Shown here: piece by piece, positions 45,985 to 62,100 of the stretch
How positions within the stretch are numbered: the stretch's first letter is position 1
Layout of the letters: each line of letters begins with the position of its first letter
Assembly: GCA_944384855.1 (NCBI GenBank)
Contig: CALWUY010000056.1
Location: forward strand, 1 to 64,000
DNA length: 64,000 nt
Direction of reading: 5' to 3'
DNA from: an uncultured Clostridia bacterium
GTDB lineage: Bacteria; Bacillota; Clostridia; Oscillospirales; Acutalibacteraceae
The notes under the pieces: generated by a model
The model's input: only the letters and a program-made list of their open reading frames with translations
Database searches by the model: none
Told to the model about the DNA's origin: nothing
Translations under genes and position numbers: made by a program

Positions 45985-48900
45985 ATGGCAAGCAAATATG
46001 AGATTATTACGGCATTATACCGTGAAAGCGTAAAAGGGCTTGCTAAAAATCATCATACTTGGACAGCGTTTCTTCACTCCGCTTGCTATAACTACCGTTT
46101 ACCCTTTGATGAACAAGTGCTTATTCACGCACAGCGGCCCGATGCGACGGCTGTGCTTGAGATTGAGGGCAAAAACGGATGGAATCAGAAGTTTGGTAGA
46201 TGGGTCAACCGCTATGCAACGGGTATTGCGGTGTTCGACCGTCATCACGCAGGACGGCAAAGGCTGAAATACTACTTTGATATTTCCGATACCCACGAAA
46301 GCCGCTTTGCAAGACCGGTGCCGATATGGGAATATAAACCCGAATATGAAGCGGCGGTTATCGAAGCGCTTAAAAACCGCTTCGGTGAACTGAGAGATAA
46401 ATCCGATCTGCAATCGGCATTACATTCCGTTGCGAAAAATGCGGTTGAGGACAATCTTCCCGACTATCTCTCCGAACTGATCCGCTACCGTGCGGACAGT
46501 TTCTTGGAGGATTACGATGACCTTAACGTAGAGGTTATCTACCGCAGATTGCTTGAAAACAGCGTTGCCTATATGCTGATGTCAAGGTGCGGCTTGGATG
46601 TGGACGAATACTTTGAGGTTGACGATTTTAACGACGTTATCAACTTTAATTCTCCCGACACGATGAACACACTGGGCGTTTCTACAAGCGATATTGCCGA
46701 AAACTGCCTTGGTGCTATTGCCTTGACCGTAAGAAATCTGCAACGGGAAGAAAAAAAGGAAAATCGCACATTTGCGGAAAATGCTGAAAAAGAGTATCCT
46801 ATTGTCAGCAAGCCGAAAACTATGAGCGAAAGGAGTATTGAAGATGGAACTGACCTACACGATGAAGAACGGCTATCGTCTGCCGAACCTGTTGCCCCCG
46901 CAAGAGCCGGAGGTTCACCTTGGGAAATACGCATTGCTTCGCAGAAGGTATCTGCAACAGAACCGAAAAGTGAGGTTCACCAATCTGCTGACGTCGGGCA
47001 AGCTGAACGAGCACCTGATGGAAGTGGACAAAGCGGCAAACGAGAGGATGGAACTCTTGGTAGCACAGATGGCACAAGCCGAGGGCATCACGGAGGAAAT
47101 GAAAGCCACCGATCAGATGAAATGGGTGGGACTGATGAACAACATCCGAATGTCGGCGGAGGAGCAAGTGCTGAAAGAGCTGATTTACGAATAAACGACG
47201 AAAACGCAGGTGGTGAGGAACTACCTGCGTTTTTGGATGAAAGGCTCATTATGGGTATCATCGCCAACAAGGAGGATGACCTTAAATTCAAAAAGCACCA
47301 AATTGAGCTTTTCTTCTCGGTTCACACCGACCCGAAAGAACGGGCGGAATATCTTAAATCGGCGTATCACGACCGTTATACCGAGGTCATCTTGGATGGC
47401 GGTGTACGGTGCGGATATAAGCCGCAGGAGGACGGACTTCTTATGTGGGAGGGTGCATACCTTTCCCGCACAAAGGAGTCCGTTTTTTCGTGGGATTGTA
47501 TTGTCGGTTTTACCGACCAACTTATCAAGAAAAAGGAATACTCTCCCGGTATTATCAACCGCCGTACAAAGAAACTGCCCCCGCAGGACTCTAATCAGCT
47601 AACCTTATTTGACGTGTTTGATATGGGTGTGGATGAACCTTCTGAGGAAACGCCGCAGCTATCCCTTTTTCCCAAGTGGGAGGCTTCACAGCAGATTATT
47701 GATGAAACCCTTTGCATCGGAGCCAACGAGCGTAAAAGCCTTTTGGATATTTGCGCTCGCTTTATGAAGGATAAGTCCGTAGAGGAAAACGCCGAATGGC
47801 TGAAAGAACATTACGGCACAAGCGGCACGGGATTTTTCTTTGAAGGTCGCAGAATTGCCGTATGGTACAACGAAAACGGCATCCGTATCGGTGAGGGTGA
47901 CACCGCACAGCGCTCTACGGCCACGGTTGTCACTTGGGAGCAATCCGCAAAGCGTATCCGAGAACTGCTTGACCTTGGACGGTATATGCCGCAGAGCTTA
48001 ATCGACCAAGTGGTAGATTATGAATACAAAGAGATTGCAGAAAATCTTTTGTATATCACAAGCGATTTTTCGGATCGTTCCGCACCCTATAATCAAACTG
48101 TAATGGGGGTTGTAAATCAGCGGGGCGGTTATCCCGATATGACAGAACGCCTTGTGGCGTTACTGAAAGAGCCGGACACTCTTGCTCAGATTGTAGATGA
48201 ATGGAAGGTGTTTACTGCCGCCCATAAAGAGAACCCCGACCTTTTGCGTTTCCGTTGGTATCGACCGCAAAAGTGGTTGGAGCGTTTGCAGGATCTTCAG
48301 CGAGAGCCGGTTATCTTCCAAGCCGCAGAAGGCTTTGAGCCTAAACGAGAGCATTTTATTACCAAAGACGAATTGGATATGCTTTTGCGGGGTTCGGAAC
48401 GCCGTTCCGACTTCCGCCTTGGCGTTTATGCCTTTTATCGTACTCATAAAGACCAAAAAGAACGTGAGAAATACTTGCGTGATAAGTTTGGTACGGGCGG
48501 CGGCACTACGGACGGAAACGGTTATGGTAATCATGACGGCAAAGGATACTCCTTTAGCCGTGGGGATATTATGAAGCCTTTTGCTAAAATCAGCCTATCC
48601 TGGGCGCAAGTTGCGAACAGGATTAAGGAACTGATTGCCCAAGGAAAATTCCTTACCGATAAAGACAAGGAAGGTATGGCGGACTTTGAACTTCGTGAGC
48701 TTGGGCATATCGTTCATAATGGCTTTTTCGGTGCTTCGGATGAGCACCCCAAGCCCTTTACCGATAATGATACGGTGAAATATTGGGATAATGTAAAATC
48801 CGTTGCCGAGCAGTTAAAAGACCCCAACCGAGCAGAGGTTATCTATACGACAATGCTCCTGCCTTTATGGGAAAGTACCCTGCCCAACGACCGCTATTAT

Positions 48901-51900
48901 GAGCACCGCAAAAAGGCGGTTGAAGCCTTACAGCAGTACCGTGACGGTGTGTTCTCTGTGTTTGGAAACGGTCGCAACTTATGGTTGGAGCAGTTAAAGA
49001 AACAGCCGCAGACCGCAGAACCCGAAAAGCCGATGAACCCTATATTGAAACGGCTGACGGAAAATCGGGCAAAATACCCCGAAGCAATCATCCTTTTGCG
49101 TGTTGACGACTTTTACGAAGCCTTTGATGAAGATGCTCATATTCTTGCGAAAACCTTTGATTATACGCTTGCCTCCCGTCCGTTGGACGGTGAGCGCAAG
49201 GCTATGGTAGGTTTTCCGCAGCATATCTTTGAGAAAAACATTGATAAGCTGATGAAAACGGGTGTCCCGGTGGTTGTAAACTATCCCGACGGCAAAACGG
49301 ACATTTACCCCGAACCCGTACAAAGCAAAGAAACAGACGGCTCCAACCGTGAGGTGGATACGCTCTGCAAAATCCTTGACCGCTTGGGTATTGATGATAT
49401 TACCATCGAATACGAAAACGGCGAGCTTGTTGCCCGTGACGAGGATAACGTATGGTACAGTAAGCAGTTATACGATTTCCTTGCCGATGAAGCCTTTGTC
49501 TATACCGAGGACGGCGTATTGGGGATTGAGGGTGAACTGCTTGCCGACTTTGCGGAGCTTGCCAAACGGTACGGAATTGAGATTCCGACCTACAATGCCG
49601 AAAAAGAACAAGGCGACGTGCGTGATGATGTTGACCCTGCCGCCATTCGTGAGAAACTTGCTCAAAGCGGTATCGTAAACGGCGAGGTCGTGGACGAGGA
49701 TGCTTTGAACAATTCACCTTTTATCCGTCAAGTTATGGCTGATGCAGAAGCGGCGCAGGAAGAAACGGAAACACGGATCGTTGTAAGGTATCAATCTGAT
49801 AATGAGATTATCGTAATACAGCAGTATCTTAACGGTCAGTTTTATAACCGCTACGGCTATGATGAGAACACGGACTTTGCAGCATCTACTGCAGGCGGGT
49901 TTGTTACTCTTGATGAAGCAGAAAACGCTCTCCGTTCCCATCGTCCTATGGCAGTAAAGGTTGAGCCGAGCATCGCAATACCAACCAACCTTGCACCGCC
50001 CAAGCCACGGAAAGAGCGTGTGCGGTTTACCACCCTGCACCCTGAAATCCCTGCGGAACAGCGTCACAATTTCCGTATTACCGACCCTGAACTCGGATAT
50101 GGTACGGCAAGCGAGAAATATGCTGCCAACGTAGCCGCCATCCGTCTGCTTAAAAAGATCGAAAGCGAGAAACGGCTTGCCACTCCCGACGAGCAGAAAA
50201 TCCTATCCCGCTATGTTGGTTGGGGCGGTCTTGCGGATTGCTTCAAGGAAGAACACAGCCGATATAACGAGCTGAAAAGCCTGTTAGAACCCGATGAATA
50301 TGCCGCAGCAAGAGCGAGCAGTTTGACCGCCTTTTATACCTCCCCCGTTATTGTGGAGGCAATGTATAAGGCACTCGGACAGATGGGGTTCAAAAACGGC
50401 AACCTCTTGGAGCCTGCCTGCGGTGTCGGTAACTTTATCGGTATGCTCCCCGAAGGAATGACGGGCGGCAAAGCCTACGGTGTGGAACTTGACAGTATCT
50501 CCGGCAGAATTGCACAGCAGTTGTATCAGAACAGCAATATTGCCGTGAACGGCTTTGAAAAGGTGGAAATGCCCGACAGCTTCTTTGACGTAGCAATCGG
50601 CAACGTGCCTTTCGGAGATCTTCGCCTTGCCGACCGTAAGTACGACAAGCACCATTGGCTCATACACGACTATTTCTTTGGTAAGACCTTGGATAAAGTG
50701 CGACCGGGCGGTATTATCGCCTTTATTACGAGTAAGGGTACGATGGATAAGGAAAGCTCCGCCGTGCGTAAATACCTTGCGCAAAGAGCCGATCTGATCG
50801 GCGCTATCCGCTTGCCGAACACCGCCTTTAAGAAGAACGCCGGCACCGAGGTCACAAGCGATATTATCTTCTTGCAGAAGCGTGACCGCATTATCGACAT
50901 TGAACCCGATTGGGTGCATCTTGATACCGATGAGAACGGCATTAAGATGAACAGTTACTTTGTGCAGCACCCCGAAATGGTACTTGGCGATATGGTTATG
51001 GAGTCCTCCCGTTTCGGTATGGAGAGCACCTGCAGACCCTATGAGGATGCAGACCTTGGCGACTTGCTCAATAATGCTATCTCCAACCTTCACGCAGAGC
51101 TGACCGACTATGAGGTGGACGAACTTTCGGACGAGGAGGATTTATCAATCCCCGCAGATCCCAACGTGCGTAATTTCAGTTACACGGTAGTGGACGGCAA
51201 ACTGTATTTCCGTGAAAACAGCCGTATGCACCCCGCAAATCTCCCCTTGACTACTGAAAACCGTGTAAGGGGTATGATACTTCTGCGAGATTGTGTGCGG
51301 CAGCTTATTGAGTACCAAACCGAGAACTATCCCGATGAGATTATCAAGCGTGAGCAGGAAAAGCTGAACACCCTTTACGATAACTTCGTAAAGAAATATG
51401 GGCGTCTGTTCACCCGTGGCAATAACCTTGCTTTCCGTGATGACAGCAGTTATTGTCTGCTTTGCTCCCTTGAGGTACTTGACAATGAGGGTAACTTTGA
51501 GCGCAAGGCGGATATGTTCACCAAGCGTACTATCAAACCCCACGAACCCGTAACCAAGGTTGATACTTCAAGTGAGGCACTTGCCGTATCCATTTCCGAA
51601 AAGGCGTGTGTGGATCTTGAATATATGGCAGAGCTGTCCGGAAAGAGCGAGGAAGAACTGATTGCCGACCTTAAAGGCGTTATCTACCGTGACATTAAGT
51701 GTCCTATCAATACTGAGGAAATCTCTCCTGCCCACCAAGAACTTGATTTTTATGACTTTGTAATGGCGGACGAATATCTGTCGGGCAATGTGCGAAACAA
51801 GTTGAAAATGGCACGGGCATTGTGTTCGGTATTACCCGCCGAAAAAAGAGCAGAAATCGAGCACTGTATCCCTGCTCTGGAGGCGGTGCAACCCGAAGAT

Positions 51901-54864
51901 CTGAGTGCGGGTGAAATCAGCGTCCACATCGGAACGCCGTGGATACCTGCCGAGGTATATCAGCAGTTTATGTTTGAAACCTTTGGTACGAACCGCTACG
52001 CACAGGACAGAATGGGCGTTCTTTATTCCCGATATAACGGTACTTGGAACATCACCAACAAGAGTGCCGACAGCGGTAATATCAAAACCACGACCACCTA
52101 CGGCACAAGGCGTATCAACGCCTACCACATTTTCGAGCAATGCTTAAATCAGAAGGATGTACGCATCTTCGATACGGTCATTGAAAACGGCAAAGAGAAA
52201 CCCGTGCTCAACAAGAAGGAAACGGCGATTGCCCAAGACAGACAGGAGCTTATCAAGCAGAAGTTTGTGGAATGGATATGGCGGGATATTGACCGCCGTG
52301 AGATGCTTTGCACTCTCTATAACGAAACCTATAACTCCATTCGTCCCCGTGAGTATGACGGTCAGCATATCCGCTTTACGGGTATGAACCCCGAAATCTC
52401 TCTGCGACCGCACCAAATCAATGCGATTGCCCATATTCTTTACGGCGGTAATACCTTGCTTGCCCACGAAGTAGGCGCAGGTAAAACCTTTGAAATGGTT
52501 GCGGCGGCAATGGAACTGAAACGCTTGGGACTCTGCAATAAGTCGATGATCGTCGTGCCAAACCACATCACCGAGCAATGGGCGGCAGAATGGTTGCAGT
52601 TATATCCTGCGGCGAATGTGCTGATAGCCACCGAGCGTGACTTTGAAAAGCAAAACCGCCGTAAGCTCTGCGCCCGTATCGCCACCGGTGATTACGATGC
52701 CGTTATTATCGGTCACAGCCAACTGCAAAAGATACCGATGTCAAAGGAGCGACAGCAAGCCATTATCGAGCGACAAATCGAGCAGGTTATGATCGCCATT
52801 CAGCTTGCCAAAAAGGAAAAAGCCGAAAACTTTACCGTCAAGCAGATGGAACGCACCCGTAAATCCCTTGAAACAAGGCTTGAACGGCTTAACGACATTG
52901 AGCGTGATGATACCGTAACCTTTGAAGAACTCGGTGTTGACCGCTTGTTTATTGACGAGAGCCACTATTTCAAGAACTTGTTTCTTGCCACCAAAATGCG
53001 TAACGTGGGCGGTATCGCACAGACCGAAGCGCAGAAGTCCTCCGACCTCTTTATGAAATGTCAGTACCTTGACGAAATCACCGAGGGTCGAGGGGTTATC
53101 TTTGCAACGGGTACGCCTATCAGCAATTCAATGGTGGAACTCTACACCATACAGCGGTATTTGCAGTATGGCTTGCTTGATGAATTGGGACTCCAGCATT
53201 TTGATGATTGGGCGGCAAACTACGGTGAAACCACCACGACCATTGAGCTTTCCCCCGAAGGTAGCGGATACAGACCGAAAACAAGGTTTTCCAAGTTTAT
53301 CAACCTGCCCGAACTGATGGCACACTTTAAGATGTGCGCCGATATTCAGACGGCGGACATGCTCAAACTTCCCGTACCCGAAGCGATATTTCACAATGAG
53401 GTTATCAAGCCTTCCGACCTGCAAAAAGAAGCCATAACGGGACTTGCGGAACGAGCCGAAGCAGTGCGTGGCGGTAACGTCGATCCGAGCGTAGATAATA
53501 TGCTTAAAATCACCAACGACGGCAGAAAGTTAGCACTTGATATGCGGCTTTTCAATCCACTTGCCCCCGATGATGAAAACGGCAAGGTTGCCTCCTGCGC
53601 CCGTAACGTATTCCGTATATGGGACGAGGGCAAAGAGGAACGGACAACGCAGCTTGTGTTCTGCGACCTTTCCACCCCGAAGGGTGACGGCAGTTTTAAT
53701 GTTTATGACGATCTGAAGCAGAAACTTGTGGAGCGTGGTATCCCGGAGGAAGAAATCGCCTTTATTCACGATGCCAATACCGATGCCCGTAAAAAGGAAC
53801 TGTTCGCCAAGGTTCGCTCCGGTCAGGTGCGTATCCTTATGGGCAGTACGCCGAAGATGGGTGCAGGAACCAACGTGCAGGATAGACTTGTGGCTCTCCA
53901 CGACCTTGATTGTCCGTGGCGACCGAGCGACCTTGCACAGCGCCTTGGCCGTATAGTACGGCAAGGCAACCGCAATAAAAAGGTCGATATTTTCCGTTAC
54001 GTTACCGAGGGAACCTTTGACGCATATCTGTATCAGCTTGTAGAAAACAAGCAGAAATTCATTGCACAGATTATGACGAGCAAGGCTCCCGTCCGTATTG
54101 CATCCGACGTGGACGAAACGGCGCTGAACTATGCGGAGATCAAAGCCTTGGCAACGGGTAATCCGATGATTATTGAGAAATGCACCCTTGATATGGAGGT
54201 CAGCAAACTCAATATGTTAAAGGCAAGCTACCTCAATCAGAAATACGCCTTGGAGGAACTTGTACTGCGAAAATATCCCGCAGATATGAGCGAGGTTCGG
54301 GAGCGTATCGCAGGTTATGAGAAGGACTTGGAGATTGTCCGTGCTCACCCGAAAATCGAGGACGGTTTTACGGGTATGGTAATTATGGGCGTGACCCACA
54401 CCGAAAAGGAAACCGCAGGTAAAGCCATCATTGATGCGTGTACCCGTATGACAGACCCCGATGCCATCCCTTTGGGAGAGTATCGGGGTTTTGCTATGAC
54501 CCTTTCCTATGACGGGCAAGCAAACGAATACCGCATTACCTTAAAGGGTGCGCTTTCACACACGGTTGTTTTGGGTTCGGATATTTACGGTAATATCACC
54601 CGTATGGATAACCGCATTGACGGTATCGAGGAACAACTGAAGGTGCTGAATGAAAAACTTGCGGATACGCAAACACAGCTTGAAAATGCCCGTACCGAAA
54701 TGGAGGCTCCCTTCGCCCGTGAAGCGGAGCTTGCAGAGAAAACAAGGCGGCTCCAAGAACTTAACGTCCTGCTCAACTTGGATGCCAAGGATAAAACTCT
54801 TATGGCGGATGAGCCGGACGAGGGTGACAAGGTTGCACCACGTAAAAATGAATATGCAAGGTAA
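45985..54864 (+). CDS. Giant N6-adenine methylase/SNF2-type helicase of the conjugative element
   Basis: 2959 residues. In order: an ArdC-like N-terminal domain (about 20-100, YNYRLPFDEQVLIHAQRPDA); a low-complexity linker (about 285-405) that overlaps tnpV in another frame; repeated helical domains; a MutS domain I-like part (about 1018-1105, LLRVDDFYEAFDEDA); an N6-adenine methylase domain (LEPACGVGNFIGM about 1473, GNVPFGD about 1537 in place of NPPF); and a helicase core (HEVGAGKT about 2160, FIDESH about 2322, GAGTNVQDRL and QRLGRIVRQGN about 2625-2660). A coiled coil ends the protein. It probably protects or processes element DNA during transfer. AAGGAGGTG precedes ATG 45985. Confidence 0.9.
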   Translation: MASKYEIITALYRESVKGLAKNHHTWTAFLHSACYNYRLPFDEQVLIHAQRPDATAVLEIEGKNGWNQKFGRWVNRYATGIAVFDRHHAGRQRLKYYFDISDTHESRFARPVPIWEYKPEYEAAVIEALKNRFGELRDKSDLQSALHSVAKNAVEDNLPDYLSELIRYRADSFLEDYDDLNVEVIYRRLLENSVAYMLMSRCGLDVDEYFEVDDFNDVINFNSPDTMNTLGVSTSDIAENCLGAIALTVRNLQREEKKENRTFAENAEKEYPIVSKPKTMSERSIEDGTDLHDEERLSSAEPVAPARAGGSPWEIRIASQKVSATEPKSEVHQSADVGQAERAPDGSGQSGKREDGTLGSTDGTSRGHHGGNESHRSDEMGGTDEQHPNVGGGASAERADLRINDENAGGEELPAFLDERLIMGIIANKEDDLKFKKHQIELFFSVHTDPKERAEYLKSAYHDRYTEVILDGGVRCGYKPQEDGLLMWEGAYLSRTKESVFSWDCIVGFTDQLIKKKEYSPGIINRRTKKLPPQDSNQLTLFDVFDMGVDEPSEETPQLSLFPKWEASQQIIDETLCIGANERKSLLDICARFMKDKSVEENAEWLKEHYGTSGTGFFFEGRRIAVWYNENGIRIGEGDTAQRSTATVVTWEQSAKRIRELLDLGRYMPQSLIDQVVDYEYKEIAENLLYITSDFSDRSAPYNQTVMGVVNQRGGYPDMTERLVALLKEPDTLAQIVDEWKVFTAAHKENPDLLRFRWYRPQKWLERLQDLQREPVIFQAAEGFEPKREHFITKDELDMLLRGSERRSDFRLGVYAFYRTHKDQKEREKYLRDKFGTGGGTTDGNGYGNHDGKGYSFSRGDIMKPFAKISLSWAQVANRIKELIAQGKFLTDKDKEGMADFELRELGHIVHNGFFGASDEHPKPFTDNDTVKYWDNVKSVAEQLKDPNRAEVIYTTMLLPLWESTLPNDRYYEHRKKAVEALQQYRDGVFSVFGNGRNLWLEQLKKQPQTAEPEKPMNPILKRLTENRAKYPEAIILLRVDDFYEAFDEDAHILAKTFDYTLASRPLDGERKAMVGFPQHIFEKNIDKLMKTGVPVVVNYPDGKTDIYPEPVQSKETDGSNREVDTLCKILDRLGIDDITIEYENGELVARDEDNVWYSKQLYDFLADEAFVYTEDGVLGIEGELLADFAELAKRYGIEIPTYNAEKEQGDVRDDVDPAAIREKLAQSGIVNGEVVDEDALNNSPFIRQVMADAEAAQEETETRIVVRYQSDNEIIVIQQYLNGQFYNRYGYDENTDFAASTAGGFVTLDEAENALRSHRPMAVKVEPSIAIPTNLAPPKPRKERVRFTTLHPEIPAEQRHNFRITDPELGYGTASEKYAANVAAIRLLKKIESEKRLATPDEQKILSRYVGWGGLADCFKEEHSRYNELKSLLEPDEYAAARASSLTAFYTSPVIVEAMYKALGQMGFKNGNLLEPACGVGNFIGMLPEGMTGGKAYGVELDSISGRIAQQLYQNSNIAVNGFEKVEMPDSFFDVAIGNVPFGDLRLADRKYDKHHWLIHDYFFGKTLDKVRPGGIIAFITSKGTMDKESSAVRKYLAQRADLIGAIRLPNTAFKKNAGTEVTSDIIFLQKRDRIIDIEPDWVHLDTDENGIKMNSYFVQHPEMVLGDMVMESSRFGMESTCRPYEDADLGDLLNNAISNLHAELTDYEVDELSDEEDLSIPADPNVRNFSYTVVDGKLYFRENSRMHPANLPLTTENRVRGMILLRDCVRQLIEYQTENYPDEIIKREQEKLNTLYDNFVKKYGRLFTRGNNLAFRDDSSYCLLCSLEVLDNEGNFERKADMFTKRTIKPHEPVTKVDTSSEALAVSISEKACVDLEYMAELSGKSEEELIADLKGVIYRDIKCPINTEEISPAHQELDFYDFVMADEYLSGNVRNKLKMARALCSVLPAEKRAEIEHCIPALEAVQPEDLSAGEISVHIGTPWIPAEVYQQFMFETFGTNRYAQDRMGVLYSRYNGTWNITNKSADSGNIKTTTTYGTRRINAYHIFEQCLNQKDVRIFDTVIENGKEKPVLNKKETAIAQDRQELIKQKFVEWIWRDIDRREMLCTLYNETYNSIRPREYDGQHIRFTGMNPEISLRPHQINAIAHILYGGNTLLAHEVGAGKTFEMVAAAMELKRLGLCNKSMIVVPNHITEQWAAEWLQLYPAANVLIATERDFEKQNRRKLCARIATGDYDAVIIGHSQLQKIPMSKERQQAIIERQIEQVMIAIQLAKKEKAENFTVKQMERTRKSLETRLERLNDIERDDTVTFEELGVDRLFIDESHYFKNLFLATKMRNVGGIAQTEAQKSSDLFMKCQYLDEITEGRGVIFATGTPISNSMVELYTIQRYLQYGLLDELGLQHFDDWAANYGETTTTIELSPEGSGYRPKTRFSKFINLPELMAHFKMCADIQTADMLKLPVPEAIFHNEVIKPSDLQKEAITGLAERAEAVRGGNVDPSVDNMLKITNDGRKLALDMRLFNPLAPDDENGKVASCARNVFRIWDEGKEERTTQLVFCDLSTPKGDGSFNVYDDLKQKLVERGIPEEEIAFIHDANTDARKKELFAKVRSGQVRILMGSTPKMGAGTNVQDRLVALHDLDCPWRPSDLAQRLGRIVRQGNRNKKVDIFRYVTEGTFDAYLYQLVENKQKFIAQIMTSKAPVRIASDVDETALNYAEIKALATGNPMIIEKCTLDMEVSKLNMLKASYLNQKYALEELVLRKYPADMSEVRERIAGYEKDLEIVRAHPKIEDGFTGMVIMGVTHTEKETAGKAIIDACTRMTDPDAIPLGEYRGFAMTLSYDGQANEYRITLKGALSHTVVLGSDIYGNITRMDNRIDGIEEQLKVLNEKLADTQTQLENARTEMEAPFAREAELAEKTRRLQELNVLLNLDAKDKTLMADEPDEGDKVAPRKNEYAR
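46844..47194 (+). CDS. tnpV: TnpV family protein nested in another frame of the helicase gene
   Basis: 116 residues read in a different plus-strand frame from the helicase. AAAGGAG (46829-46835) lies 8 bases before ATG 46844, ideal spacing. The product matches the TnpV family along its length: MELTYTMKNGYRLPNLL, GKYALLRRRYLQ, FTNLLTSGKLNEHL, MAQAEGITEEMKA, WVGLMNNIRMSAEE. TnpV proteins are encoded by Clostridia transposons and ICEs; their function is not established. The helicase reads through the same bases as a Gly/Ser/Asp-rich linker, so the DNA is used twice. Confidence 0.88.
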   Translation: MELTYTMKNGYRLPNLLPPQEPEVHLGKYALLRRRYLQQNRKVRFTNLLTSGKLNEHLMEVDKAANERMELLVAQMAQAEGITEEMKATDQMKWVGLMNNIRMSAEEQVLKELIYE

Positions 54865-56948: not shown

Positions 56949-58379
56949 ATGGCAACCACCTCCATCTGGAGCGTGAAGGGTTGGCTTGGCAAGTTGGTTA
57001 TATATGTAGAAAATCCGAACAAGACCACCAACCCCCAATACTACGAAAAGGCGGAGCTGACCGAGAAACAGGCACAGACCCTTTTGGATGTTATCGACTA
57101 TGCCGCCGATCCGAGCAAGACCGACGCAGTAATGCACGATGAAAATATCGAAACTCATCAACAGTTTGTAACGGGTATCAACTGTTTACCCGCAACTGCT
57201 CGTGATGAAATGCAGGCGGTAAAAAAACGCTTTGGAAAAGAGGACGGTGTTATAGCATACCACGGGTATCAATCCTTTGCCCCCGGAGAAGCCGATCCGA
57301 AAACGGCACACGAAATCGGGATACGGCTTGCCAAAGAATTGTGGAGCGAAAAGTATCAAGTGGTGGTTGCAACCCACCTTGATAAAGAGAACCATCTGCA
57401 CAACCATTTTGTAGTCAATACCGTGTCCTTTGTTGACGGCATCCGTTACCACCGCACGGGTAAGGATTACCACGATATGCAGGTGGCTTCGGATAACCTT
57501 TGTCGTGAGTACGGCTTGTCGGTGATCGAGAATATTCAGTACGGCAAATCCAAGCACTACGGCGAATGGAAAGCCGAGCAGGAGCAACGCCCAACGTGGC
57601 GAGGATTTTTCAAGGCGGATATTGACGAAGCTATCCGTATGTCATTGACCGAAAGGCAGTTTTTTCGTCACTTGGAGGAAAAAGGCTATGAAATAAAAAT
57701 GGGCAAGGACATATCGGTACGCCCCCAAGGAAAAGAGCGTTTTGTAAGGCTTATGCGAAACTTCGGTGAGGAATATTCCATTGAGAATATCCGCAGACGG
57801 ATACTGTCGCAGTATATCCCCGAAAAACCTCTTGCAGAGCCGGAGCGTAAAACCCGTCATTACCGTATGCAAGGCAGTATGAAAACCGTCCGTAAGATTA
57901 CAGGATTTCGGGCGTTATATTTTCATTACTGCTATAAACTCGGCATCTTCCCAAAGGACAGACCGCAGAACCAAAAACGGCTCCATTTTCTCCTTCGGGA
58001 GGATCTGCTGAAGCTCAATAATATTTCACAGGAAGTAAGGTTGCTTGTGCGGCACAAAATTGATACCGCCGAGCAGCTTTCTTTATATAAAAACGGATTG
58101 GAGGTGCAAATTGAAAAACTATCCGCCGAGCGTAAGGCATTGTATAAAAAGCAACGCACCGTCAAGTGCCAAAGCGACCCTAAACTTGCCGAAGCCGTGA
58201 AGAAAGAAATTGACGGCTTGACCGAGCAATTAAAGAACCTGCGGAGAGAGGTGCATTTGTGTGATGACATTGCCCAGCGTTCCGGTGTGATAACCGAAAA
58301 ACTCAAAGCCGTCCGAGAGGACGAGCAGACCCAAGGAAAGGAGAAACAGCAAAATGAACCCATCAGGCGACGCAGCTGA
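56949..58379 (+). CDS. Relaxase (MobA/VirD2 family)
   Basis: 476 residues. Relaxase domain in the first ~260 residues with the metal-binding three-His motif in HLDKENHLHNHFVVN (about 140-154) and FAPGEADPKTAHEIGIRLA upstream of it. A catalytic Tyr is expected near the N-terminus (candidates Y19 and the Tyr pair at about 30). The C-terminal third is a long coiled coil (LEVQIEKLSAERKALYKKQR). It nicks at oriT and leads the transferred strand. Overlaps the PcfB-like gene by 26 bases. Confidence 0.9.
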   Translation: MATTSIWSVKGWLGKLVIYVENPNKTTNPQYYEKAELTEKQAQTLLDVIDYAADPSKTDAVMHDENIETHQQFVTGINCLPATARDEMQAVKKRFGKEDGVIAYHGYQSFAPGEADPKTAHEIGIRLAKELWSEKYQVVVATHLDKENHLHNHFVVNTVSFVDGIRYHRTGKDYHDMQVASDNLCREYGLSVIENIQYGKSKHYGEWKAEQEQRPTWRGFFKADIDEAIRMSLTERQFFRHLEEKGYEIKMGKDISVRPQGKERFVRLMRNFGEEYSIENIRRRILSQYIPEKPLAEPERKTRHYRMQGSMKTVRKITGFRALYFHYCYKLGIFPKDRPQNQKRLHFLLREDLLKLNNISQEVRLLVRHKIDTAEQLSLYKNGLEVQIEKLSAERKALYKKQRTVKCQSDPKLAEAVKKEIDGLTEQLKNLRREVHLCDDIAQRSGVITEKLKAVREDEQTQGKEKQQNEPIRRRS

Positions 58380-60093: not shown

Positions 60094-60278
60094 TGGAGCG
60101 TGAGGAAAGACGGGTCTTATCCCTTGACCAATATCAGCACGGCGTTATCGTCAATGCCCTTAACGATAAGCGAAATGACCTTATCAAAGAGAAGCGCCCC
60201 ACCGATATTGTGGATGAGGTCTTGTTGAAAGCACTTGACGCACCGAGAAAAAAGGTGCGTTGCAAGGATGAACGGTAA
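60090..60278 (+). CDS. 62-residue conserved element protein, paralogue of the one at 35264
   Basis: Product MMEREERRVLSLDQYQHGVI with RPTDIVDEVLLKALDAPRKK near the C-terminus. The ATG overlaps the previous stop and the gene overlaps the VirD4 gene start by 11 bases, so it is embedded in the transfer operon. It shares most conserved positions with the 55-residue protein at the element's left edge. Helical; function unknown. Confidence 0.75.
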   Translation: MMEREERRVLSLDQYQHGVIVNALNDKRNDLIKEKRPTDIVDEVLLKALDAPRKKVRCKDER

Positions 60279-62100
60279 GACAAGTCCGTGGCTTTATCTG
60301 CTCGGTATTATCCCTGCCGTATGGTTGGGTCTGCTGATCGCTCCAGCGGTCAGCGGTGGATTGATGGAGATTGTCACACAATTTCCGATAATGATGGAAA
60401 ACCCATTGAAAATAACGTGGTGCGAGGACAGCTTGAAAACTGTCCTCGTTTTCATTTTCGCTTATGCAATGGGTATCGGCATTTATATCTCCACCAAACG
60501 AACCTACCGCCGTGGCGAGGAACACGGCTCGGCTAAATGGGGCATTGTCGAGCGTATCAACAAAAAGTACCGTGCGAAAGAGCCGAAACCCAACAAGATC
60601 TTAACGCAAAACATCCGTATTGGTCTGAATGGCAAGAAACACCGCCGTAACCTTAACACAGTAGTCGTGGGCGGTAGCGGTGCGGGTAAAACCCGTTTCT
60701 ATGCCAAGCCTTGCATTTATGAAAGCATCACCGCAGGCAAAGATGGCGAGTTTTGCTCCTTTGTCTGCCTTGACCCCAAGGGTGAATTACTCCGTGATTC
60801 CGGTAACCTCCTTAAAGAGTGCGGTTATGAGATAAAGATACTTGACCTTATCAATATGCACAAAAGTCATTGCTATAACCCGTTTGTATATCTGCGGGAC
60901 GATGACGACGTGCAGCAGCTTGTAACCAACCTGTTTAAGAGCACCACGCCGAAAGGCACACACAGTAACGACCCCTTTTGGGATCAGATGGCGGAGGTTC
61001 TGCTGAAAGCATTGGTGTTTTATCTGTTTCACGAAGCACCGCCGGAGGAGCAGAACTTCCCGATGATAATGGAAATGCTGAGAGCCGGTGACGTGCGAGA
61101 GGATGACCCGTCCTACGAGTCGCCCCTGGACATTCTGTATCAGCGTTTGGAAATGGATAACCCCGACCACATTGCGGTGAAGTATTACAAGGACTACCGC
61201 AACGGTGCAGCAAAAACCATTAAATCCATTCAAATCACCTTGGCGGCAAGACTTGAAAAGTTTAACTTAACGTCGCTTATAGGTCTTACCTCCACCGACG
61301 AATTGGACTTGGCATCTCTCGGAGAGAAAAAGGTAGCATTATTTGCTCTTATCTCCGACCGTGACAAATCCTACAACTTCCTTGTATCCATTCTTTACAC
61401 CCAGCTTTTTCAAATGCTGTTTGATACGGCGGAAAACAAGTACGGCGGTTCGCTCCCCGTACCCGTGCACTTTTTGATGGATGAGTTTGCCAACGTGTCG
61501 CTCCCCGAAGACTTTGAAAACATCCTTTCAACGATGCGTTCCCGTAACGTGTTTGTATCTATCATTTTGCAGAATATCGCACAGCTCAAAGCCCTGTTTG
61601 AAAAACAATGGGAGTCCATCTTGGGCAACTGTGACGAGTTTTTGTACCTTGGCGGTAACGAGCAGAGCACCCACAAGTACGTGTCGGAATTGCTCGGCAA
61701 GTCCACCATTGATACCAACACCTACGGCAAGTCCACGGGTCATAGCGGTAATTACAGCACCAACTATCAGAACACGGGACGAGAACTGCTGACCCCCGAT
61801 GAAGTGCGTATGCTCGACAACTCCAAAGCCTTGTTGTTTATCCGAGGGGAACGCCCCGTGATGGATGATAAATTTGATGTTTTGAAGCATCCCGGTGTAT
61901 CGCTCACTCCCGATGGCGGCGGTAAGGTGTACGTTCACGGCACGACCGAACACGCCGTTGCCGGTATTACAAGCATTGTGGTGAAAAAGAAGGACAATAT
62001 CGTGTCGCAGAAATATGAAGCGACAGAACCCGTAACCCATTATGAGCTTCTTTCCAACGAGGAATTAGAAGCAATCTTTTTGACAAATCAGGAGGAGTAG
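60268..62100 (+). CDS. virD4: VirD4/TraG-type coupling protein
   Basis: 610 residues from ATG 60268. Two N-terminal membrane helices (about 5-29 and 53-72), Walker A VVGGSGAGKTRFY (about 133-145), FVCLDPKGELLRDSG, Walker B FLMDEFANVSLPEDFENIL (about 402), and the C-terminal LLTPDEVRMLDNSKALLFIRG typical of TraG/VirD4. It delivers the relaxase-DNA complex to the type IV secretion channel. The start overlaps the small paralogue gene; a longer frame upstream lacks a ribosome binding site. Confidence 0.93.
   Translation: MNGKTSPWLYLLGIIPAVWLGLLIAPAVSGGLMEIVTQFPIMMENPLKITWCEDSLKTVLVFIFAYAMGIGIYISTKRTYRRGEEHGSAKWGIVERINKKYRAKEPKPNKILTQNIRIGLNGKKHRRNLNTVVVGGSGAGKTRFYAKPCIYESITAGKDGEFCSFVCLDPKGELLRDSGNLLKECGYEIKILDLINMHKSHCYNPFVYLRDDDDVQQLVTNLFKSTTPKGTHSNDPFWDQMAEVLLKALVFYLFHEAPPEEQNFPMIMEMLRAGDVREDDPSYESPLDILYQRLEMDNPDHIAVKYYKDYRNGAAKTIKSIQITLAARLEKFNLTSLIGLTSTDELDLASLGEKKVALFALISDRDKSYNFLVSILYTQLFQMLFDTAENKYGGSLPVPVHFLMDEFANVSLPEDFENILSTMRSRNVFVSIILQNIAQLKALFEKQWESILGNCDEFLYLGGNEQSTHKYVSELLGKSTIDTNTYGKSTGHSGNYSTNYQNTGRELLTPDEVRMLDNSKALLFIRGERPVMDDKFDVLKHPGVSLTPDGGGKVYVHGTTEHAVAGITSIVVKKKDNIVSQKYEATEPVTHYELLSNEELEAIFLTNQEE

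Follow-up and report, generated by a model that had tools for sequence, protein, structure and literature searches.

A tnpV gene nested in the +1 frame of polyvalent helicase genes of Bacillota conjugative elements: comparative evidence for long-kept dual coding

Neither the TnpV family nor polyvalent helicases are new, and mobile elements with nested genes are known as well. In RSF1010, mobB lies within mobA/repB in a different frame (available part of PMC2200642). The pair considered here, a tnpV gene inside a helicase gene, resembles that arrangement in that a mobile element carries a small DNA-transfer gene inside a large one. Unlike the RSF1010 pair, it consists of other genes, is found in well over 100 homologous cases in Bacillota, and has had selection measured at the level of residues in its linker frame. 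Long nested bacterial genes are also represented by htgA/yaaW and nog1/citC of E. coli, but in the available part of PMC4683798 these are antisense and narrowly distributed, whereas tnpV and the helicase gene share a strand and the pair is widespread. The large partner has MutS-I, the methylase-SNF2 dyad, and a putative ArdC-N-like start in common with the polyvalent proteins presented in the accessible portion of PMC5512222; the main text of that paper contains neither "TnpV" nor "overlap". The small partner is of the same family by name as TnpV of Tn4451 and Tn6104 (PF14198), and the protein encoded here matches PF14198. In the accessible part of PMC3158075, the Tn4451/Tn6104 protein is said to be encoded by an ORF of its own, and nesting goes unmentioned. 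No description of tnpV nesting in these helicases was found in the open-access literature searched, including the available portions of PMC5512222, PMC9815147, PMC5633684, PMC3158075, PMC11913394, PMC6868206, and PMC12942858.

The window is a stretch of 64,000 nucleotides from an uncultured Clostridia bacterium, and its features are collected in Table 1. The host protein is recognised by Pfam as MutS_I (E=2.8e-15), SNF2-rel_dom (1.7e-11), and Helicase_C (2.5e-6), with the methylase Eco57I (1e-4) falling just under its cut-off; the combination of MutS-I, methylase, and SNF2 in a single chain that marks polyvalent proteins is thus present, with Eco57I below cut-off. The ArdcN profile is weak on the N domain, reaching E<=0.1 in 6 of 66 homologues (best 0.0013), and a Listeria homologue carries an ArdC-like annotation. 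Downstream (3') of the helicase gene lie a relaxase (56949-58379), a VirD4-type coupling protein (60235-62100), DUF3991/Toprim, DpnD-PcfM, and other transfer genes, and the host gene is therefore part of a conjugative element, which by gene content we take to be of the general Tn1549 type. In the 35545-63362 region, the element seemingly starts at about 35.1-35.5 kb, with ParA, ParB, a lipoprotein, and a long SpaA-like ORF (1646 aa); its right end was not found within the window.

Table 1. Features of the tnpV/helicase locus in the window
Feature	Coordinates	Strand	Basis
Host polyvalent protein gene, 2959 aa	45985..54864	+	ORF without internal stop
Host domain order: ArdC-N-like N domain, linker, variable middle, MutS-I, methylase-like, SNF2 helicase	45985..54864	+	Pfam and homologues
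Helicase N domain (weakly ArdC-like), conserved, 5' of overlap	45985..46839	+	66 homologues aligned, 7 invariant columns
GAAAGGAG, likely tnpV ribosome-binding site	46828..46835	+	AGGAG in 84 of 132 embedded copies
Helicase linker, residues 287-403 (about)	46843..47193	+	G/D/R/E/S rich in family, no Cys
Nested tnpV, 116 aa, +1 frame of host	46844..47194	+	PF14198 E=8.9e-44

The nested gene begins with the ATG at 46844 and ends with the stop codon at 47192-47194, so that its offset (46844-45985=859) places it in the +1 frame of the helicase. Its product aligns with positions 1-111 of the 111 in PF14198 at 148 bits against a cut-off of 27, and thus belongs to the TnpV family. AAAGGAG (46829-46835) stands 8 nt before the ATG, and in the helicase frame GAAAGGAG together with the next base encodes E-R-S. 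A sequence-only reading of this DNA had claimed a full tnpV gene overprinted in the helicase gene, AAAGGAG at good spacing, TnpV family motifs from end to end, and a helicase frame open with domains on both sides; all of this was borne out, the N domain preceding and MutS-I/SNF2 following the overlap within one ORF. Its coordinates for the gene, 46829..47194, are right at the end and wrong at the start, since 46829 belongs to the ribosome site. The window's own genome (G000, L001-L007) has 7 tnpV matches, and this one is the sole copy with a helicase match around it in the fetched stretch.

These approximately 350 bases very probably encode two proteins from the same strand, a state that appears to have been kept for long in Bacillota conjugative elements. 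Ribosomes starting at 45985 would make the giant ArdC-like/MutS-I/methylase/SNF2 protein, reading the overlap as a disordered acidic linker, while others would initiate internally at GAAAGGAG/ATG and translate the +1 frame into TnpV. A single mRNA would most likely yield both proteins, TnpV by internal initiation, and the linker could tolerate the overlap because its composition is of the disordered-spacer type. Comparison of homologues provides the presence and frame of the nested gene, its start signals, selection in both frames, and co-divergence, and translation of both frames is what these would imply.

The nesting is not peculiar to this genome. When a genome collection was queried with tnpV, 8 loci were obtained, and in 8/8 tnpV lies inside a homologous helicase ORF. 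A helicase query of the first 1000 residues, which includes the linker in the helicase frame and thus is slightly biased toward similar linkers, matched 52 of 295 genomes at the level of order, 75 of 391 (class), and 14 of 398 (phylum), in sets that overlap, as well as 10 plasmid records. About 18 match places, mostly short or at contig ends, lie outside the fetched set, and the profiles used on homologues were built from the fetched loci. After repeats were removed by N-domain sequence (a step that leaves aside L040 and L044, whose N domain is missing or short), 155 distinct homologues remained, of which 147 carry tnpV inside the helicase gene, all in the +1 frame and on the same strand; 132 of these copies are full length and 15 partial or divergent. 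Six of the 155 (L037-L039, L041-L043) came from the tnpV query, and without them the count is 141/149; as the homologues share kinship, these are not counts of independent events. Stop codons in the tnpV frame of most homologues had been named beforehand as refuting evidence, and the outcome is the opposite. Among 13 Bacilli plasmid loci followed from one enterococcal and one Virgibacillus hit, 11 have the nested gene (9 of 11 distinct loci, L216/L251 and L258/L259 duplicating each other), and in those 11 it is the only same-strand nested ORF of at least 90 aa.

Such a distribution bears on the idea that a tnpV-bearing fragment was recently inserted by chance, with no role and with the helicase frame left open by luck. 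TnpV genes are indeed mobile, as seen in the 7 matches of the window's genome and in copies beside recombinase and resistance genes, and the snf2 genes of S. suis elements are reported to harbour mobilizable elements with TnpV (available part of PMC9815147). However, place, strand, and frame are common to those 147 of 155 homologues, with identities of 26-64% to the window's N domain where aligned; the two genes co-diverge; and by codon resampling an open frame is less than 0.1% likely per case. A recent chance insertion is refuted by the homologues and is given next to no credence.

Eight of the 155 homologues count as lacking tnpV inside (L091, L152, L157, L159, L167, L168, L171, and L185), and they are of several kinds. 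L091 has tnpV intact in place with the helicase frame broken by a stop, L152 matches tnpV weakly at +1 (E 4e-4 in an unfiltered search), and in L159 the contig end cuts the tnpV region. L167, L168, and L171 consist of the N domain alone or are truncated; in L168, where no tnpV was found, a large internal deletion joins the N domain in frame to the last ~100 residues. L157 carries tnpV just upstream of the helicase gene (148-490) and none inside. L185 has neither linker nor tnpV, and only 22 residues separate its N and middle matches; on the proposed check of whether helicases without the linker are also without tnpV, this supports dual coding. The Bacilli plasmid loci L260 and L261 have no nested tnpV. 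Thus, loss of the nested gene does happen. L123 has an extra tnpV just upstream, and its nested copy covers no more than the initial two thirds of the profile.

The double frame is not what tnpV sequences give by themselves. The helicase-equivalent frame is free of stops in 1 of 25 standalone tnpV copies and in 0 of 21 in a second standalone set drawn by PF14198 alone (total 1/46). This second set derives from the 28 best-scoring copies made into loci, 21 standalone and 7 embedded; the latter (L240, L242-L244, L247, L248, and L250) are all open and coincide with genome positions that the helicase query had already yielded, adding no new cases. Synonymous codon resampling that preserved the TnpV proteins left the helicase frame open with a mean probability of 0.0004-0.0008. 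A milder randomisation, which shuffled the codons already used by each gene, gave a mean of 0.097 and a median of 0.043, higher because those codons are already T-poor. As a baseline, 2445 of the 114612 111-codon windows from other parts of the same helicases (2.1%) have an open +1 frame; in nine Bacilli plasmid helicases (33-40% GC) the figure for 105-codon windows is 0/7751.

Selection in the two frames can be followed at the TnpV wobble base, which is the free base for the helicase frame. Across 132 embedded copies, a wobble T before AA, AG, or GA, where it would create a stop, occurs 0 times in 1411, and before GC or GT, where it would create Cys, 0 times in 230; two sets of standalone tnpV have the Cys-making T in 76/129 and 68/108 (144/237). 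A wobble T giving Tyr or Phe is reduced in embedded copies, while T giving Ser (before CA, CC, or CT; 809/1768 embedded) is little changed, as is Leu (TTA). The pattern has blemishes: a T that yields Leu as TTG is likewise scarcer (16/80 embedded vs 15/31 standalone) and one that yields Trp is hardly reduced (64/287 vs 18/67), and protein selection in the helicase frame does not account for these counts. Cys is absent from the linkers of 132 homologues (0/14768 residues, compared with 892/143966 elsewhere in the same ORFs) and from nine plasmid linkers (0/960). May a linker without Cys perhaps serve unfolded passage through a secretion channel? Across the family the linkers are G/D/R/E/S rich; the sequence-only reading had seen a Gly/Ser/Asp-rich linker.

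The fourfold-degenerate sites of TnpV, each the first position of a helicase codon, point the same way. For pairs with 70-80% TnpV identity, fourfold sites differ by 0.345 in embedded tnpV (176 pairs), compared with 0.535 in the helicase N domain for those 176 pairs and 0.556 in standalone tnpV (14 pairs). Within this band TnpV identity in the overlap is 0.7-0.8 against a mean of 0.53 for the helicase frame, and TnpV is thus the better conserved of the two. With protein, start, and ribosome site conserved in the TnpV frame, and with the wobble pattern and slow fourfold sites in the helicase frame, both frames look to be under purifying selection, which answers the proposed check on synonymous and non-synonymous change; the pair thereby shows the second frame, conserved and selected across homologues, by which nested genes are recognised.

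These data weigh on the possibility that TnpV alone is functional and the helicase is two proteins, the linker frame being open through codon bias. Database annotation lends this some colour. Some records already hold tnpV at the nested place, and among them are some that list it with an SNF2 CDS beginning after it; others show no helicase CDS there, in a gene table that omits pseudogenes. Of the annotated plasmid records that contain the pair, 15 in all, 4 list TnpV (L162, L163, L222, L251), with L162 having an early stop in the helicase frame, and 11 leave it out (L164, L216, L217, L252-L259); none of the 15 gives it together with an overlapping helicase CDS (pseudogenes again being omitted). 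The same 429-residue start is annotated in two ways, as a full SNF2 protein in L216:4974-10507 and as TnpV plus an SNF2 protein beginning right after tnpV in L251:1501-4287. The better conservation of TnpV in the overlap also fits this reading. Nevertheless, the frame is not open in standalone tnpV (1/25, 0/21), it is open in AT-rich plasmids too, and the absence of Cys, the reduction of Tyr and Phe, and the keeping of most Ser codons are hard to explain for an untranslated linker, so that a helicase in two pieces is highly improbable.

The start signals of embedded tnpV are conserved, both ATG and ribosome site. AGGAG is found 8-15 nt upstream of the start in 84 of 132 embedded copies, at 8 nt in 64 of them; it is missing from the usual place in 48, several of those shown having GAAAGGA or AGGGG. 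A six-base match is present in 73 of 121 embedded copies, a set with repeats that also served the open-frame analyses, and in 29 of 5198 control +1 ATGs; AGG makes up 9.9% of Arg codons elsewhere. A Shine-Dalgarno-like element within a gene can also stimulate frameshifting, and TnpV might be made as a fusion by programmed +1 frameshifting from the helicase N domain, with GAAAGGAG as stimulator; the direction is the same and the offset is +1. On the other hand, many loci have a tnpV-frame stop a few tens of bases before the ATG, leaving little room, although in some the tnpV-frame ORF extends further upstream. The ATG and its 8-nt spacing are kept, and standalone tnpV genes need no fusion. A frameshift product is accordingly rated very improbable beside internal initiation.

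The pair appears to be old. Distances in the TnpV and helicase N-domain trees are correlated (Mantel r=0.832, n=138; 500 permutations gave at most 0.175), and the five nearest neighbours overlap by 0.62 on average. The sequence-only reading had offered either an old overprinting or an insertion that kept the frame; the age is upheld by this co-divergence (r=0.83), and the event may have been an entry of tnpV into the helicase gene or, alternatively, an extension of the helicase reading frame across a tnpV already there. The nesting would have arisen once or very few times, long ago, in Bacillota conjugative elements and been retained since. If either protein segment is a newcomer, the helicase linker is probably a likelier candidate than TnpV, because of its disordered composition and its lower codon adaptation (lower than that of TnpV in 90/132). 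Most standalone copies form a single cluster inside the range of the embedded ones in unrooted trees, and the data do not reject one clade for all of them (p=0.62). L021, a standalone tnpV on a G042 contig, retains an open helicase-equivalent frame of about 270 codons; it clusters with embedded copies in a FastTree tree, is unplaced in another, and may be a recent escape from the helicase gene.

What TnpV does is a separate matter. From its association with the helicase, TnpV might act with the polyvalent protein in transfer or establishment of the element, a proposal that we put forward tentatively. One competitor, compatible with dual coding and different on function alone, makes TnpV an excisionase-like factor nested by happenstance, with no tie to the helicase protein. 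An excisionase was postulated for Tn4451 TnpV from similarity to lambda Xis (available part of PMC3158075), and standalone copies occur beside recombinases. Against it stand the near-neutral charge (pI 6.8) and the co-divergence of 138 embedded copies with the helicase. An AlphaFold2 model (pLDDT 90.9) predicts an N-terminal beta hairpin and long helices, with no clear PDB match in this or a second structural comparison, and rules nothing out, the winged-helix DNA-binding fold of Xis-like excisionases included. An excisionase thus seems somewhat unlikely. In our view the most likely role is that of a transfer accessory that would help the polyvalent protein or the transferred DNA; such a role fits because of the tie to the helicase and the upstream copies in L157 and L123. 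Standalone tnpV lies beside tet(O) in a Streptococcus phage and adjoins a recombinase gene in a Campylobacter plasmid (L221, L218), and comparable standalone copies occur in other plasmids (H35-H48).

Long same-strand nesting with both frames visibly selected is rarely documented in bacteria, and the pair exposes an annotation problem, in which one coding stretch receives conflicting gene calls between records. With well over 100 natural replicates, enterococcal and listerial plasmids among them, the evolution and persistence of dual coding become open to direct testing, and the pair links TnpV, an uncharacterised "transposon protein", to conjugation machinery. As a speculation that we hold to be possible but doubtful, the TnpV family may have been maintained, and perhaps first spread, inside a Bacillota transfer helicase, with free-standing copies as escapees and the linker as a read-through of tnpV shaped by selection (no Cys, little Tyr/Phe, acidic). 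If true, enzyme and accessory would be inseparable by recombination or by loss of a single gene.
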